Source: Myxococcaceae bacterium
GTDB lineage: Bacteria; Myxococcota; Myxococcia; Myxococcales; Myxococcaceae
Length of the DNA: 64,000 nucleotides
Assembly: GCA_019686135.1 (NCBI GenBank)
Contig: JADGHL010000008.1
Span: 1-64,000, forward strand
Direction: 5' to 3'
In this document: positions 37,873-45,506 of the stretch, one piece after another
Layout: the number at the start of each line of letters is the position of its first letter
Position numbering within the stretch: the first letter of the stretch is position 1
Program-made: the position numbers and the translations under genes
The notes under the pieces: model-generated
The model's input: only the letters and a program-made list of their open reading frames with translations
The model's database searches: none
Told to the model about the DNA's origin: nothing

Positions 37873-38319
37873 ATGAAGGCACTCAAGAACACCGCGCTGG
37901 CGATCGCCGTCCTCGCCGCGGCCGGATCGTTCGCCGCGTACGCGGCGGACGTGGATCCCTCGTCGCTGTATGAGCTGTCCACCGAGGGCACGACCCGGAC
38001 GATCAAGGCCGGGGAGAAGGGCAAGCTGGTGATCCAGATCACCGCTAGGCCCGGCGCCCACATCTCCGACGAGGCGCCGCTCAAAATCGAGCTGTCCGGC
38101 ACCCGCGTGAAGACCGAAAAGGAGAACCTGACGCTCGCGGACTCGGTGGCGAAGAAGGCCGAGGGCCAGAAGTACGCGAACCCGCGCTTCGAGGTGCCGC
38201 TCATCGCGAACTCCGCCGGACACGGTTCGGTCGACGCGAAGATGACCTTCTTCGTCTGCACCGAGACGATCTGCTCGCGCCAGAAGAAGACGCTCTCGCT
38301 GCCGATCGAGGTCCAGTGA
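37873..38319 (+). CDS. Periplasmic DsbD-alpha-like domain protein
   Basis: This 148-residue protein has a signal peptide (MKALKNTALAIAVLAAAGSFAAYAA). The mature part is an immunoglobulin-like fold: GEKGKLVIQITARPGAHISDEAPLKIELSG, and it ends MTFFVCTETICSRQKKTLSLPIEVQ. The Cys-x4-Cys in that last part sits where the N-terminal domain of DsbD keeps its redox pair (usually Cys-x5-Cys). It may pass electrons to periplasmic partners, or simply hold a disulfide. Its TGA overlaps the GTG of rlmB. Confidence 0.72.
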   Translation: MKALKNTALAIAVLAAAGSFAAYAADVDPSSLYELSTEGTTRTIKAGEKGKLVIQITARPGAHISDEAPLKIELSGTRVKTEKENLTLADSVAKKAEGQKYANPRFEVPLIANSAGHGSVDAKMTFFVCTETICSRQKKTLSLPIEVQ

Positions 38320-39164
38320 GCCCCCGACGGGAGCGGGAGGGCCGCCGTTCCGATCCGCCGCGCCGGCCCCAGCGGCCCGAACCGCGCCCGCGCACCAGCG
38401 ACACGCTCCGCGCCGGCGGCCGCTACGTCTGGGGCATCAACCCGGTGCTCGAGGCGCTGCGCGCGAAGCCGGAGCAGATCGAAGCGCTCTTTGTCGTCGA
38501 AGGACAGCTCCAGCGCGGCCCCGCGGCGGAGATCTTCTCACGCGCTCGCGAAGCCGGCGTGCGCACCGTACGGGTCGCCCGCGAGCGCCTGGCGACGATG
38601 GCGGAGGGCGGAGTGCACCAGGGCGTGGTCGCCGAAGTCCGCGCCTACGAGTACGTCGATCTCGGGGACCTGCTCGAGCGGGCGAAGGACTCCGAGCGGC
38701 CTCCGCTGATCGTCCTTCTGGACGGGGTGCAGGATCCCCACAACTTCGGGGCGATCATCCGTTCGGCGTACGCGCTGGGCGCGCACGGGGTCGTCATCCC
38801 GAAGGACCGTTCGGTCCAGGTGACCGGCACCGTAGCGAAGGCGTCCGCCGGAGCGATCGAGCACATCGGCATCGCGCGGGTGACAAACCTGGCGCGCGCG
38901 CTCGAGCAGCTCAAGGAGGCGGGCCTGTGGATCGCCGCCGCCGATCCCGAGGGCGACGCCACGTTGTTCACCGCGCAGCTCGACGGTCCGCTGGCGCTGG
39001 TGGTCGGCGCCGAAGGGGCGGGCGTCCGGCGCAACGTGCTCCAGCACTGCGACTTCCGCGTGCGGATCCCGATGGTGGGCGAGGTCGCTTCGCTCAATGC
39101 CTCCGTTTCGGCGGCGATCCTCCTCTACGAGGTCGCCCGGCAGCGCGCCGGCCGTGCGCCCTAG
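38316..39164 (+). CDS. rlmB: 23S rRNA 2'-O-methyltransferase RlmB/TrmH family
   Basis: This 282-residue SPOUT methyltransferase has a basic, disordered N-terminus of about 33 residues, then the RNA-binding substrate domain (GGRYVWGINPVLEALRAKPEQ). The catalytic trefoil-knot domain follows, with VLLDGVQDPHNFGAIIRSAYALG, LVVGAEGAGVRRNVLQHCD and VRIPMVGEVASLNASVSAAILL. RlmB methylates G2251 of 23S rRNA using S-adenosylmethionine. The GTG start overlaps the previous stop (GTGA). This is the last recognisable gene before the repeat array. Confidence 0.9.
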   Translation: MSPRREREGRRSDPPRRPQRPEPRPRTSDTLRAGGRYVWGINPVLEALRAKPEQIEALFVVEGQLQRGPAAEIFSRAREAGVRTVRVARERLATMAEGGVHQGVVAEVRAYEYVDLGDLLERAKDSERPPLIVLLDGVQDPHNFGAIIRSAYALGAHGVVIPKDRSVQVTGTVAKASAGAIEHIGIARVTNLARALEQLKEAGLWIAAADPEGDATLFTAQLDGPLALVVGAEGAGVRRNVLQHCDFRVRIPMVGEVASLNASVSAAILLYEVARQRAGRAP

Positions 39165-39267
39165 GCAGCGCCGAGCCGCACTCGGCGCCCCACCCGGGAT
39201 ATCTCGCCCCGAGCCGCCCCGTAGAACACCGCGGTCGTCGCCGCCGGCGATTCGCTCCGGTGCGGGT

Positions 39268-40075
39268 CGTCGTCGAGCGACGGGAACTGTCCGCCACCGC
39301 GTTGGTGGTCACGCCCGCGGCACTCTCCGTGGGGCGTCCGTCCGGGCGACCCTGAGCACTGCGCTGATGAGCATCGGCAATCGCTCCGCCGCAGATCGGA
39401 GTTCGGCGACGGGAACTGTCCGCCACCGCGTTGGTGGTCACGCCCGCGGCACTCTCCGTGAGGCGTCCGGTCGGGCGACCCTGAGCACCGCGCTGATGAG
39501 CATCGGCAATTGCTCCGCCGCAGATCGGAGTTCGGCGACGTGAACTGTCCGCCACCGCGTTGGTGGTCACGCCCGCGGCACTCTCCGTGAGGCGTCCGGC
39601 TGGGTGACCCTGAGCCCCGCGCTGATGAGCATCGGCGATCGCTCCGCCGCAGATCGGAGTTCGGCGACGGGAACTGTCCGCCACCGCGGGTGCTCACGCC
39701 CACGGAACTCACCGTGGGGCGGCCGGCCGGGCGACCCTGAGCACCGCGCGGATGAGCATCGGCAATCGCTCCGCCGCAGATCGGAGTTCGGCGACGGGAA
39801 CTGTCCCGCCACCGCGGGTGGTCACGCCCGCGGCACTCACCGTGGGGTGTCCGTCCGGGCGACCTGAGCACCGCGCTGTGATGGTCGGCAATCGCTCCGC
39901 CGCAGATCGGAGTTCGGCGACGTGAACTGTCCGCCCCCGCGGGTGCTCACGCCCGCGGCACCCTCCGTGGGGCGTCCGTCCGGGCGACCCTGAGCACCGC
40001 GCTGATGAGCATCGGCAACCGCTCCGCCGCAAATCGGAGTTCGGTGTCGACGCGAACTGTCCGCCACCGCTCACG
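39268..40075. repeat. Array of seven 129-bp tandem repeats
   Basis: The shared landmark gaactgt begins at 39284, 39413, 39542, 39671, 39798, 39924 and 40054, giving periods of 129, 129, 129, 127, 126 and 130. Each unit also contains a CCGCCACCGC block, a GTCACGCCCGCGGCACTC block, a TGAGCACCGCGCTGATGAGC block and CTCCGCCGCAGATCGGAG. The last can form a 5-bp hairpin (ctccg/cggag). There are no CRISPR-like spacers: units differ only by scattered substitutions and small indels. Confidence 0.92.
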
Positions 40076-40469
40076 CCCGCGATACTCGCCGGGAGGCGTC
40101 CGGCCGGGCGTCTCTGGGCACGTCGCCCTGTGCGCACAGGAGAGCTCCGCGCGGGTGATCGCCAACCATCGCGTTGCCGTAATGCCCGGTTCGGCGGCGT
40201 GAGGTGTCCGCCACCGCGCCAGGTCCACACCCTAAGCAGTGATCGCGTGATCCCCGGCTGGGCGCAAAAGCACCGGTGACGGCACTCGCGGTGGAGGGTG
40301 CGGTCTGCTCCCCGAGGGAATCGCATAGGGGCGCGCGTCCGCGCAAAGTTCCCTGCGTCACCCACGCGCGTCTCCTCCCCGGGGCCGCCCGGCCCGCCGC
40401 CTTCGGCCAGCGAACGCTGCAACTCCATCCGGTGCCCACTTCGGCTCCGTCGGAGGATCGGCTCGTCGC

Positions 40470-40491
40470 GGTCCGGTGCTTGCTCGCGGGA
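40470..40491 (+). promoter_or_regulatory. 22-bp block shared upstream of both isopeptide-type lipoprotein genes
   Basis: The sequence ggtccggtgcttgctcgcgg plus GA lies 62 bases before the ATG at 40554. The paralogue has the same block with few changes at nearly the same distance (43575-43596). No typical -10/-35 pair is seen, so this may be an activator site or an unusual promoter. Confidence 0.5.
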
Positions 40492-40553
40492 CCCGTCGCC
40501 GGCCTGTGCCCCCGCACCGGCCGGTGGATCCCCTAACCAGGACGGGAACGATC

Positions 40554-42923
40554 ATGAAGCGATGTCTGGGCGGAGCGAGAGGTCTGTTGCTGGCCGCAGC
40601 ATGTCTGCTGGTCGCAACGAGCGGGTGTGGATTCGTCGTGGTCGACGGCGAACAGACCCGGTCAGACGCGGAGCACAGCGGCCATCGTCATGATGGCAAG
40701 GACGGAGACGGCTGGTCGAAGGACGACAAGGACAAGAACGATGACGACGGCGAGTGCCTGACGCTGAGCTGCCCGGGCGACCACATGAGCCACACGCACA
40801 AGGGCGACCGGTGCTGTGTCGGCCCGGACGTGGACAAGGATGGCATCCCCGACTCGTGCGACAACTGCAAGCTCTCACCGAACCCGACCCAGCGTGACTC
40901 GGACAGCGACGGGGTGGGGGACGAGTGCGACAACTGCCCGGAGGTCTGTAACGAGGATCAGTTCGACGAGGACCGCGACGGCGTGGGCGACGCGTGCGAC
41001 AACTGCGAGTTCATCTGCAACGAGGACCAGGCGGACGCGGACCGGGACGGCGTGGGCGACGCCTGCGACAACTGCCGCGATCTCTCCAACTCGCAGCAGC
41101 CGGACTTCGACCATGACGGTCAGGGCGACGTCTGCGACGACAGCTGCGACGGCGTCTCCGGCGTCCTCTACCTCTACAAGGACGTCGTGAAGGACGGCTA
41201 CGACATCGTCGACAACTTCAAGTTCAAGGTGCGGATCACCTCGACCGGGACCACCGCCGCGTTCGACGAGGTCTACGAGATCAGCGAGGACAGCCCGCTC
41301 TACATCCGCCTGCGCGCGGGCACCTACCACATCTCGGAGAAGGACGTCCCGCCTGGCTACACGCTCGAGAGCGAGCTGGACGTGACGATCCCGATCTGCG
41401 GCATCGCGAATGCGACCCTGGTGGACGACAAGCACACCGGCAAGCTCGAGGTGCACAAGGACGTCCGCCTCACCGAGGACAAGGACCCCACCTGCGACGT
41501 GGAGGACGACACGAAGTTCAAGGTTCGGATCAAGTCGAAGGACGGGAACAAGGTCGACGAGATCCACGAGATCAGCGAGGACAAGCCGCTCTATCTCGAG
41601 CTGCCGGTCGGCAAGTACGAGATCGAGGAGATCTACGTCCCCGGCGCTTTCAAGCAGCCGGATCCGATCTACGTCGAAGTCGTGGAGGACTGCCCGGCCG
41701 AGGTGACGATCGTCAACATCCTGCGGCGCGCGAAGCTGACGATCTTCAAGGACGTCTGCAACACGCCCAATGACTGCTCGGTGACCCGGAGCGACGTCAC
41801 CTTCACCGCGCACATCGTGGCGACCGGCGATACGCCCGCGCTGGACGCGTTCTTCCTCATCCGCGAGGGCTTCCCCCGCGAGTTCTTCCTCCCGCTGGGC
41901 ACCTATGAGATCACCGAGGAGCCGACGCCCGGGTTCACGCTGGTTTCGCCGCTCGAGATCACCCTCGACAAGGACGGCGAGTCCGGGACGCTGATCAACC
42001 TGATCGACGCCGGCACGCTGACCCTCACCAAGGACGTGCGCCTGTGCGCCGAGCGCGGCCCCGAGTGCGACATCGCTGACCCGCACGTGTTCTCGGTCCA
42101 CATCCAGAGCACCGGGACCACGCCGCCGTTCTCCACGGACATCCGGCTGAGCGAGGGCAACCCGAAGACCATCGGCCTCGCGCCGGGGACCTACCTGGTC
42201 AGCGAGAACCTGCCCCTGCCGCCCGCGTACACCCCGCCCGCGCCGTTCGAGGTGACCATCACCTCGGACACCGACACCGCGCGGACGCTGGTCAACCTGG
42301 TCAACCGCGCGCCGGTGACGATCACCAAGGACGTCCGCCAGAGCCTCGAGACGGACATCAGCGACAACACCTGCTTCACGGTGATCCTCAACCCGGCCAC
42401 CGCCGACACGCCGCCGGGCCAGGTGGTGCGGCTCGTCTGCGAGAACCAGCCGCTGTCGCTGGAGCTGCCGCTGGGCGTCTACAACCTCACCGAGCTCGTG
42501 CCGCCGGGCTACGTGGGCTTCAACATCCCCGCGCAGATCACGGTCGTGGCCGGGACGAACACGGTGTCGCTGGTCAACCTGATCACCGTCGAGGTCCGCC
42601 TCCGGAAGGACGTGGTGGGGTGCCCGTATGAGAGCGAGCCCGCGTGCAGCGCGCATGTGTTCAGCGGGACGATCCAAGCGATCGGCGCCACGCCGCCACT
42701 GACCCTGCCGTTCACCTTCTCCGAGGGGCACGACTTCGTCACCCAGCTGCCGTACGGCCAGTATCAGGTCACCGAGACCGACGAGCCCGGCTACACGCCA
42801 CAGGACTTCGGCAGCGGGGCCGGGGTGTTCATCATCACCGTGCCCGGGAACGCCGACTGGACCGTGCACAACTGCTTTGGCGACAACGTGACCTGCCGCG
42901 AAGGCGTCACCCCCGACATGTAG
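40554..42923 (+). CDS. Lipoprotein with thrombospondin-3 repeats and six SpaA/CnaB-like domains
   Basis: This 789-residue protein has lipoprotein signal GLLLAAACLLVATSGC (Cys25). A His/Asp/Lys-rich stretch comes next. Residues 91-198 are Ca-binding thrombospondin type 3 repeats (DRDGVGDACDNC repeated). Six prealbumin-like domains of 93-99 residues follow. Each opens with a strand ending in Lys-Asp-Val (K209, K302, K399, K493, K592, K685) and has a YxxxE-x-PxGY-like box (E262, E359, E455, E551, E647, E741). Each ends with a strand carrying Asn (N388, N482, N581, N675, N773; Asp291 in domain 1). This is the Lys/Glu/Asn set of isopeptide-forming pilin and adhesin domains. It is probably a rigid surface stalk or adhesin. 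Confidence 0.85.
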   Translation: MKRCLGGARGLLLAAACLLVATSGCGFVVVDGEQTRSDAEHSGHRHDGKDGDGWSKDDKDKNDDDGECLTLSCPGDHMSHTHKGDRCCVGPDVDKDGIPDSCDNCKLSPNPTQRDSDSDGVGDECDNCPEVCNEDQFDEDRDGVGDACDNCEFICNEDQADADRDGVGDACDNCRDLSNSQQPDFDHDGQGDVCDDSCDGVSGVLYLYKDVVKDGYDIVDNFKFKVRITSTGTTAAFDEVYEISEDSPLYIRLRAGTYHISEKDVPPGYTLESELDVTIPICGIANATLVDDKHTGKLEVHKDVRLTEDKDPTCDVEDDTKFKVRIKSKDGNKVDEIHEISEDKPLYLELPVGKYEIEEIYVPGAFKQPDPIYVEVVEDCPAEVTIVNILRRAKLTIFKDVCNTPNDCSVTRSDVTFTAHIVATGDTPALDAFFLIREGFPREFFLPLGTYEITEEPTPGFTLVSPLEITLDKDGESGTLINLIDAGTLTLTKDVRLCAERGPECDIADPHVFSVHIQSTGTTPPFSTDIRLSEGNPKTIGLAPGTYLVSENLPLPPAYTPPAPFEVTITSDTDTARTLVNLVNRAPVTITKDVRQSLETDISDNTCFTVILNPATADTPPGQVVRLVCENQPLSLELPLGVYNLTELVPPGYVGFNIPAQITVVAGTNTVSLVNLITVEVRLRKDVVGCPYESEPACSAHVFSGTIQAIGATPPLTLPFTFSEGHDFVTQLPYGQYQVTETDEPGYTPQDFGSGAGVFIITVPGNADWTVHNCFGDNVTCREGVTPDM

Positions 42924-43019
42924 CGGAGCGTCCAAGCGGCACTTGAGCCGCGCCTTCGCCCCGGTGCCCACGCGGCGCCGGGGCGAAGCATTTCCGCGCG
43001 AGCGTCCACCGGACCGGAG

Positions 43020-43345
43020 TTCTGCAGGTTCCGGGGGGCGCGCCTGCGTCGGATCGTTCCGGGGGGCGGCGCTGCGCAAATGCGATGCGGCGTCCGGGCA
43101 GCGTGGGCATGCCGCATGGTTCTGCGGTGGGCTCTGCGGAAGCGATGCGAGGTCCGGGCAGGTCGGACACGTCCGCATCGCTCCACGGGCGCTGCTGCAC
43201 CGACCGATGCGAGAACCGGGAAGCGCGGGCATGCGGCATCGATCCGCGGGGTGCTGCTGCGCCGAAGCGATGCGAGGTCCGCACAACGCGGACGTGTCCG
43301 CGTCGTTCTGTGAGGCGCGACTGCACCGAGGCGATTCGGACGCTC
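43020..43345. repeat. Array of 60-64-bp hairpin-forming tandem repeats
   Basis: The landmark GCGATGCG (or CCGATGCG/GCGATTCG) begins at 43082, 43142, 43204, 43267 and 43331, and a more decayed unit precedes it. Each unit holds GGTCC, a GGGCAT or GGACAC block, a CGCATCG-like inverse of the landmark, and a CTGCTGC stretch. In the second unit gcgatgcg and cgcatcgc form an 8-bp stem around about 24 bases; others keep partial pairing. Confidence 0.82.
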
Positions 43346-43574
43346 CGTTCAGACACCGCCTGTCCCGGATCCTCCCAAGGAGTGACACCGCGCTTCCGCC
43401 CTTCTGTGTGCGCGGCGCCTCAGAGCGGCACGGATGCTGCCCAGACTCGCGCGCCGGCGCCTCCAACGTCCGGACGTGGTGCTCCCGCGCGGCGCCGTCC
43501 CGTTTCACGCTACCCGACGGCGCAAGCACCCCGCGGGTCGCCTTCGCTCCGACTGCGATGCGAACGCGTGCGCG

Positions 43575-43596
43575 GGTCCGGCGCTTGCTCGGGGGA
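43575..43596 (+). promoter_or_regulatory. 22-bp block shared upstream of both isopeptide-type lipoprotein genes (second copy)
   Basis: The sequence ggtccggcgcttgctcgggg plus GA matches the block at 40470-40491 at 20 of 22 positions by eye. It lies 64 bases before the ATG at 43661. Retention of this block in otherwise diverged flanking DNA suggests function. Confidence 0.5.
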
Positions 43597-43660
43597 ACAG
43601 GTGCCGGGGCTGCCCTCGCAGCTCCGGTGATTCTCCTGAACACGGAGCGGGATGGGAAAC

Positions 43661-44917
43661 ATGAGGCAATGGTTGGGTGGGGCGAGAGGGCTGTTGCTGG
43701 CGGCGGCGTGTCTGGCGCTCGCGAGCAGCGGGTGTGGGGTTGTGGTGGTGGACCCGGACGGCGAAGGCGAATGGTCGGCCTGGGGTTCCGATCACCACAA
43801 GGTGGGCGATCGCAAGGGAGACCACGATCGGAAGGACGATGACGGGAGGGACAAGGATCACGACGGGAAGGACGACGATCACGACGGGAAGGATTGGGGG
43901 GACGGTGACAAGTGCGAGTCGCTCTCCTGCCCGGGCGATCACCACGGTCACCCGCACAAGGGCGACCAGTGCTGCCTGGGGCCGGACTCCGACCATGACG
44001 GAGTGCCGGACAGCTGCGACAACTGCCCGCTGGACGCGAACACCTCCCAGCGCGACAGCGATGCCGACGGGGTGGGCGACCAGTGCGACAACTGCCGCGA
44101 GGTCTGCAACGAGGACCAGGCCGACTCGGACTATGACGGTGTCGGCGACGCCTGCGACAACTGCGTGGACGTCTGCAACGCCGATCAGTCCGACCAGGAC
44201 TGGGACGGGGTAGGGGACGTTTGCGACAACTGCCGCGAGGTGCCGAACCCGCAGCAGGCGGACTTCGATCGCGACTGGAAGGGCGACGCCTGTGACGAGT
44301 CCTGCGACGGGACCTCCGGCGTCCTCGACCTCTACAAGGACGTGGTCACCCTCGAGAAGGACGTCGTGGACAACCACACCTTCAAGGTGCGGATCACCTC
44401 CACCGGCAGCACGCCGTGGTTCGACGAGACCTTCCCGCTGAGCGAGGACAGCCCGCTGTATCTGCGGCTGCGCGCGGGGACCTACCACGTCACCGAGAAG
44501 GACCTGCCGCCCGGCTACCGGCTCGAGGAGGAGCTGGAGGTCACCATCCCGGTGTGTGGCTCCGTCCACAAGACGCTGGTCAACGTGAAGAAGACGGGGA
44601 CGCTCGTGCTCAAGAAGGACGTGCGCGAGAAGCGCGGCGATGAGCCCGAGTGCGACGTCCAGGACGACACCGAGTTCAAGGTCAAGGTGAAGTCGGTGGA
44701 CGGCAACGACGTGGAGAAGATCGTCACCATCAGCGAGAAGGACCCGGCGTATCTCGAGCTGCCGGTCGGCCGGTACAAGGTCGAGGAGGTCTGGGCGCCT
44801 TCGGGCTACAAGCGGCCTGACCCGGTCTGGGTGGAGGTGGAGAAGGACCACAAGACTGAGGTGACCCTGATCAACGTCCGTTACCCGCCGACCGACGGCG
44901 CGGGCGTGCCCTGGTAG
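43661..44917 (+). CDS. Lipoprotein paralogue with thrombospondin-3 repeats and two SpaA/CnaB-like domains
   Basis: This 418-residue protein starts MRQWLGGARGLLLAAACLAL, then ASSGC (Cys25). An in-frame ATG at 43652 is possible, but 43661 matches the paralogue start. A strongly Asp/His/Lys-rich segment (about residues 40-85) is followed by thrombospondin type 3 repeats (DSDADGVGDQCDNC and similar) to residue about 215. Two SpaA-like domains follow: Lys226/Glu279/Asn308 and Lys319/Glu376/Asn405. The protein ends right after the second domain. Domain 1 keeps Asn where the longer paralogue has Asp. It clearly arose by tandem duplication with loss or gain of four domains. A terminator follows. Confidence 0.85.
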   Translation: MRQWLGGARGLLLAAACLALASSGCGVVVVDPDGEGEWSAWGSDHHKVGDRKGDHDRKDDDGRDKDHDGKDDDHDGKDWGDGDKCESLSCPGDHHGHPHKGDQCCLGPDSDHDGVPDSCDNCPLDANTSQRDSDADGVGDQCDNCREVCNEDQADSDYDGVGDACDNCVDVCNADQSDQDWDGVGDVCDNCREVPNPQQADFDRDWKGDACDESCDGTSGVLDLYKDVVTLEKDVVDNHTFKVRITSTGSTPWFDETFPLSEDSPLYLRLRAGTYHVTEKDLPPGYRLEEELEVTIPVCGSVHKTLVNVKKTGTLVLKKDVREKRGDEPECDVQDDTEFKVKVKSVDGNDVEKIVTISEKDPAYLELPVGRYKVEEVWAPSGYKRPDPVWVEVEKDHKTEVTLINVRYPPTDGAGVPW

Positions 44918-44944
44918 CCCCTTTCCGAGAGCGGATCCACGTCA

Positions 44945-44980
44945 GAAGGCCGGACGAAAAGTCGTCCGGCCTTCGTTCTT
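44945..44980 (+). terminator. Terminator after the second lipoprotein gene
   Basis: gaaggccggacg (44945-44956) pairs perfectly with cgtccggccttc (44963-44974) around aaaagt, followed by gttctt. The T-tract is short, but the stem is strong. It overlaps the -35 box of the tRNA-tuf promoter. Confidence 0.8.
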
Positions 44981-45007
44981 GACATCCCGCAAAGCGTTCC
45001 ATAGAAG
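44979..45007 (+). promoter_or_regulatory. Sigma-70 promoter of the tRNA-tuf operon
   Basis: A consensus TTGACA (44979-44984), a 17-base spacer and TAGAAG (45002-45007) lie about 55 bases before the first tRNA. It probably drives the four tRNAs and tuf. Confidence 0.8.
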
Positions 45008-45061
45008 GCCACGCCCTTACGCCTACAGGGGGAGTCACTCCTTCCGGGGACACGGGCAGAT

Positions 45062-45134
45062 GCCGGTGTAGCTCAGTCGGTAGAGCACTCGCCTTGTAAG
45101 CGAAAGGTCGCGGGTTCGACTCCCGCCGCCGGCC
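45062..45134 (+). tRNA. tRNA-Thr (anticodon TGT)
   Basis: This is a cloverleaf with acceptor GCCGGTG/CGCCGGC, anticodon loop CTTGTAA (TGT) and T-arm GCGGG-TTCGACT-CCCGC. CCA is not encoded. It is the first of four tRNAs in the order Thr-Tyr-Gly-Thr, the same order as upstream of tufB in enterobacteria. Confidence 0.95.
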
Positions 45135-45231
45135 TGAAGCAGGGGCCGGAGGTTGGTGCCGGCCCCGACGCAGTTGTGGTGGTGAGGTTTCAGGTCGTTC
45201 GGGTTCGATACTTCGGAGGTTTTCACGAGAC

Positions 45232-45315
<84 letters not shown>

Positions 45316-45322
45316 AGGTACT

Positions 45323-45401
<79 letters not shown>

Positions 45402-45430
45402 AGCTGTAGCGCTGTAGAGACAAAACCTGG

Positions 45431-45506
45431 GCCCCGATAGCTCAGTTGGCAGAGCGCATCCTTGGTAAGGATGAGGTCTCCAGTTCAATCCTGGATCGGG
45501 GCTCCA
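45431..45506 (+). tRNA. tRNA-Thr (anticodon GGT)
   Basis: Acceptor GCCCCGA pairs with TCGGGGC, the anticodon loop is TTGGTAA (GGT), the discriminator is T, and CCA is encoded. It ends 16 bases before tuf, so it must be cut out of the tuf transcript. Confidence 0.96.

Follow-up and report, generated by a model that had tools for sequence, protein, structure and literature searches.

A 129-bp noncoding tandem array upstream of a lineage-specific lipoprotein gene is probably a single-locus intergenic minisatellite

We analysed an array of head-to-tail 129-bp units, lying between an rlmB-type gene and a lipoprotein gene in a 64,000-nucleotide stretch of DNA (the window) from a Myxococcaceae bacterium. 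The array is known from one locus in one genome. It is probably a single-locus intergenic minisatellite, in other words a local tandem duplication of variable length in a non-conserved spacer, with no sequence-specific role. Whole units are repeated, the end copies are decayed or partial, the unit is found at one locus and is without relatives, and no block within it is significantly conserved; taken together, these features point to local tandem duplication. Placement in the minisatellite/VNTR class is supported by the presence of several head-to-tail copies, in a noncoding place, at a single locus.

Seven units start at positions 39278, 39407, 39536, 39665, 39792, 39918, and 40048, with unit-to-unit spacings of 129, 129, 129, 127, 126, and 130 bp. 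Tandem Repeats Finder (TRF) reported one array at 39277-40121, with a period of 129, 6.6 copies, 89% matches, and a score of 1271. The anchor GAACTGTCC recurs with exactly the spacing of the units, at 39284, 39413, 39542, 39671, 39798, 39924, and 40054. The anchor positions agree exactly with the seven units and the spacings described in the initial annotation. It had placed the start of the array about 100 bases past rlmB and its end about 480 bases upstream of the lipoprotein gene, and the measured distances were 113 bp from the rlmB stop (39164) and 479 bp to the ATG (40554), respectively. The seven copies stand, but the end given there, 40075, falls inside copy 7, which spans 40048-40197; a partial copy 8 follows. 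The features of the locus are listed in Table 1.

Table 1. Positions in the window of the array copies and of the features around them.
Feature	Position	Strand	Description
rlmB-type 23S rRNA 2'-O-methyltransferase	38316..39164	+	Pfam SpoU_methylase (1.4e-44) and SpoU_sub_bind (4.6e-20); conserved left neighbour
Copies 1-3	39278..39664		129 bp each; TT insertion in common; 5-8 mutual substitutions
Copies 4-6	39665..40047		127, 126, and 130 bp; 10-11 mutual substitutions
Copy 7, decayed	40048..40197		local alignment score 84, shuffles 17.7 +/- 2.6
Partial copy 8, terminal, 30 bp	40189..40218		26/30 identical; score 40, shuffles 17.2 +/- 2.6
Candidate sigma54 -24/-12 promoter, lipoprotein 1	40469..40484	+	CGGTCCGGTGCTTGCT; 9/12 defined bases
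Lipoprotein 1	40554..42923	+	signal peptide with lipobox, TSP_3 repeats, SpaA prealbumin-like domains
Second long spacer	42924..43651		no similarity to the 129-bp unit; own 62-bp repeat at ~43139-43276
Candidate sigma54 promoter, lipoprotein 2	43574..43589	+	GGGTCCGGCGCTTGCT; 9/12 defined bases; homologous to that of lipoprotein 1
Lipoprotein 2	43661..44917	+	paralogue of lipoprotein 1, 65% identity over residues 1-389
tRNA-Thr, -Tyr, -Gly, -Thr cluster	45062..45506	+	directly after rlmB in most relatives

Alignment of copies 1-6 gave 133 columns with a mean column identity of 93%. Pairs of copies differ by 5-12 substitutions and small indels, and with copy 2 as the reference the identities are about 89-96%. 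Copy 7 can be aligned over most of its length, while the only recognisable part of copy 8 is a 30-bp block, GTTCGGCGACGKGAACTGTCCGCCACCGCG. No significantly invariant block was detected among copies 1-6 (five window tests, lowest p = 0.05), nor was their longest invariant run significant (p = 0.31). The idea that the 129-bp unit is itself a dimer of ~64 bp was rejected (p = 0.18). The array DNA has a GC content of ~72%. As the assembly is a draft in 245 contigs, copies of the array may have been collapsed in it.

We then consider how widely the unit is distributed. In its own 5.5-Mb genome the unit occurs at the array locus only (C234). Weaker matches elsewhere are short and no better than chance, and a search with a relaxed 26-mer core hit the array and one further place with 3 mismatches. 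The relatives searched comprised 95 other genomes of the family and 24 of the order. At E <= 1e-4 none of the 95 family genomes had a match, leaving the genome of origin as the sole match among 96, and a set of 59 relatives, drawn from both the family and the order, gave only short, near-chance matches (E ~0.001-0.01). Viral contigs contained no match. An exact 22-mer pattern searched against GTDB r220 contigs had two single matches, in Blastococcus, which we took as chance. The initial annotation had named a common dispersed repeat as the finding that would count against it, and such a repeat is excluded by the restriction of the unit to a single locus. Dispersed intergenic repeats of the REP/BIME, ERIC, or MIRU kinds, which occupy many loci, were likewise rejected, as was a MITE, because the array edges lack terminal inverted repeats and the locus is single. 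A CRISPR array was rejected because the whole 129 bp is repeated rather than short repeats with unique spacers. The description of the array as neither CRISPR nor IS element, and as free of genes, was upheld.

The frequency of such arrays was estimated in a 0.96-Mb sample of the genome, with a crude gene caller that yielded 151 spacers of at least 300 bp. The array was the top-scoring noncoding tandem array in this sample, and clear long-unit noncoding arrays were found in about 2 of the 151 spacers. The rarity of such arrays counts to some degree against the minisatellite interpretation. The second one (L071, 12587-12974) consists of 2.3 copies of a 167-bp unit with 94% matches, in self-similar spacer DNA, and has no similarity to the 129-bp unit. 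Its presence in the same genome indicates that arrays of this kind arise without the lipoprotein gene family. The remaining high-scoring arrays in the sample were coding-like on inspection. Two long arrays (L096, 12612-13635 and 11938-12465) show 42-bp units and higher-order units of 165-168 bp, apparently in a coding frame.

Inspection of the base composition argues strongly against a coding origin of the 129-bp array. The GC content by codon phase is flat in every copy, with a phase spread of 0.03 over the array. By contrast, it ranges from 0.50 to 0.89 in rlmB and from 0.42 to 0.94 in lipoprotein 1, two genes with the marked third-position bias typical of this genome. A repetitive protein encoded on one strand could be imagined, since 129 equals 3 x 43 and minus-strand frames of 196-239 codons are open over the array (39161-39871 and 39709-40428). 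Frames of this length are usual, however, in DNA of 72% GC, these have no Pfam match, and the 127- and 130-bp units would shift the frame, so that a protein product is hardly conceivable.

An RNA function fared little better. The initial annotation had proposed a long structured leader, and the location of the array upstream of a lipoprotein gene, together with the short hairpins in the unit, would suit transcription of the array into a structured leader or a repeat RNA. Small hairpins of the kind it had described are present (e.g. CCACC-GCG(TT)-GGTGG), but their stability is no better than chance; the folding z-scores relative to shuffles were -0.46 for the unit on the plus strand, +0.29 on the minus strand, and -0.68 for six units. 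No Rfam match was obtained even at E <= 1, and the candidate promoter of lipoprotein 1 lies downstream of the array. We therefore regard a structured RNA as very unlikely. A consensus scan of 39000-43800 found no sigma70-type promoter and no intrinsic terminator. Past lipoprotein 2, at 44945-44974, there is a strong GC-rich 13-bp hairpin (z -6.6), which is terminator-like.

The array is inside a lineage-specific insert that carries a duplicated lipoprotein gene. Of 29 relatives examined, 22 have the genes for tRNA-Thr-Tyr-Gly-Thr next to rlmB, at a distance of 40-161 bp after it. Here the interval measures ~5.9 kb (39165-45061) and is made up of the array, lipoprotein 1, the second spacer, and lipoprotein 2. 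Other DNA occupies this position in at least two relatives, namely G021, with threonine-pathway-like genes, and G037. The insert edges showed no convincing homology to the rlmB-tRNA spacers of relatives (n = 22); for the right edge, one of the 22 (L035) gave a score of 32 against 14.5 +/- 2.0. For the SpaA part of lipoprotein 1, no relatives were found in the 95 family genomes or in GTDB r220 contigs, and matches elsewhere were confined to the TSP_3 repeats. In the second spacer, the ~62-bp repeat (43081-43312) contains hairpins GCGATGCG...CGCATCGC in two of three folded units (z -2.3 and -2.7); the third forms no hairpin (z +1.4).

The region between the array and lipoprotein 1 contains a putative sigma54-type promoter. 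The sigma54 -24/-12 consensus is TGGCACG-N4-TTGCW (PMC9765219). The candidate was recognised by sequence only, having GG and TTGCT at the correct spacing, and it is conserved in the paralogue. The regions upstream of the two lipoprotein genes are homologous over ~115 bp (score 49, shuffles 21.7 +/- 3.0), and the promoter element lies within their best-conserved 22-bp block (20/22, shuffle p = 0.06). Sigma54-type matches at three mismatches are not enriched in the whole window (52 found, 90 expected). Just 10 occurrences of the strict core GGNNCGNNNNTTGCW were counted in 1.92 Mb of strand, where 0.0008 would be expected per 150 bp, and two of the ten are the lipoprotein promoters. This core was defined post hoc, after the sites had been seen, so its rarity errs somewhat on the favourable side; being homologous, the two sites are also not independent of each other. 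A single rpoN gene and about 35 strong Sigma54_activat domains are encoded in the genome.

The initial annotation had also suggested a protein-binding array, and the sigma54-type promoter between array and gene gives this idea a concrete form. Each unit would carry one site, with GTTCGGCGACGKGAACTGTCCGCC as the candidate core, and the protein bound there, either a sigma54 enhancer-binding protein or some other regulator, would act by DNA looping on the promoter (40469-40484), which lies some 270-1190 bp further downstream. The -24/-12 elements upstream of both lipoprotein genes, their rare core, their place in the best-conserved paralogue block, and the complement of rpoN and activator domains all suit such a reading, and the candidate core GTTCGGCGACGKGAACTGTCCGCC persists in partial copy 8. 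On the other hand, lipoprotein 2 has an equal promoter element without the array, the 129-bp unit being absent from the second spacer on both strands. Copies 1-6 have no significantly invariant block, the 26-mer core lacks a convincing copy elsewhere in the genome, and the Nla28 half-site CTSCGSAG, the sole half-site scanned, is absent from the array. A FruA-like pattern, GGGYRN4-6YGGG, is present 4 times in the array, where the rate in the window predicts 0.45; it was not used, because one array copy does not count independently of the next. A regulatory role is possible in view of the position of the array and the retained 30-bp block, but on balance we consider a cis-regulatory array unlikely. 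Its most explicit form, a distal enhancer of seven or more 129-bp modules that each hold one activator site and drive the sigma54-type lipoprotein promoter with a strength set by the number of units, is quite improbable. Were it correct, recombination could change the number of activator sites in a bacterial regulatory array. Since lipoprotein 2 shares the proximal promoter and has no array copy, the tie between the array and the lipoprotein family that had been proposed is weakened.

The array might also influence lipoprotein 1 as a copy-number switch, in which recombination between units alters the length of the spacer and hence expression. The identity of about 89-96% to copy 2 would permit unequal recombination, and the layout, with a conserved proximal promoter and lineage-specific noncoding tandem repeats distal to it, is like that in Mannheimia haemolytica. 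However, at least ~250 bp separate the end of the array from the candidate promoter downstream, which puts the array beyond the zone usually sensitive to spacing, and the copies have private substitutions and indels, which indicate that homogenisation was not very recent. We give such a switch a small chance of being correct.

The minisatellite interpretation accommodates the exact head-to-tail period, the decayed and partial terminal copies, the flat GC phase, the restriction of the unit to its own locus, the lack of a significant invariant block, and folding no better than that of shuffles. It also agrees with the paralogue that has a proximal promoter and no array, and with the unrelated L071 array in the same genome. 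The starting point would have been the tandem duplication of a ~129-bp segment within the long non-conserved spacer that precedes the lineage-specific lipoprotein gene, after which the array would have grown through unequal recombination or replication slippage. Decay at the right edge would have produced the old copy 7 and the 30-bp partial unit, and the array probably acts as spacer DNA of variable length, having no sequence-specific role. We infer the mechanism of amplification, the instability of copy number, and the absence of function from these features. Besides the rarity of such arrays, two observations run counter to this account: the block GTTCGGCGACGKGAACTGTCCGCCACCGCG kept in copy 8 could be a selected site, although a partial end is also expected from tandem duplication, and noncoding tandem repeats are present in the spacers upstream of both lipoprotein paralogues. 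As it is, the array matters little beyond offering a clear-cut case of an intergenic minisatellite with a long unit in a genome of high GC content; it could be used as a strain marker if further genomes appear.

Like bacterial intergenic minisatellites and VNTR loci, the array consists of noncoding head-to-tail copies at one locus, with a lineage-restricted unit, imperfect copies, and a partial terminal unit. Its 129-bp unit is long compared with those of many typed VNTR loci. The leukotoxin promoter of M. haemolytica has upstream tandem repeats of a 10-bp unit, with 2-5 copies between strains, and an effect of copy number on expression has been proposed (PMC2697988). There, too, lineage-specific noncoding DNA with tandem repeats lies further upstream of a conserved proximal promoter, but the short unit varies in copy number among strains, whereas the present array has a 129-bp unit and is known from one genome (PMC2697988). 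The arrays of archaeal Borgs are similar in being independently formed, partly intergenic, and flanked by partial repeats; they are, however, pervasive and A-enriched, in contrast to the rare long-unit noncoding arrays found here, with ~72% GC in the array (PMC9879509). BrickBuilt, a minisatellite-MITE of Porphyromonas gingivalis, is likewise an intergenic tandem repeat between genes, but it has a 23-bp unit, inverted-repeat ends, and multiple loci, whereas the present array occupies a single locus and terminal inverted repeats were not found at its edges (PMC4596501).
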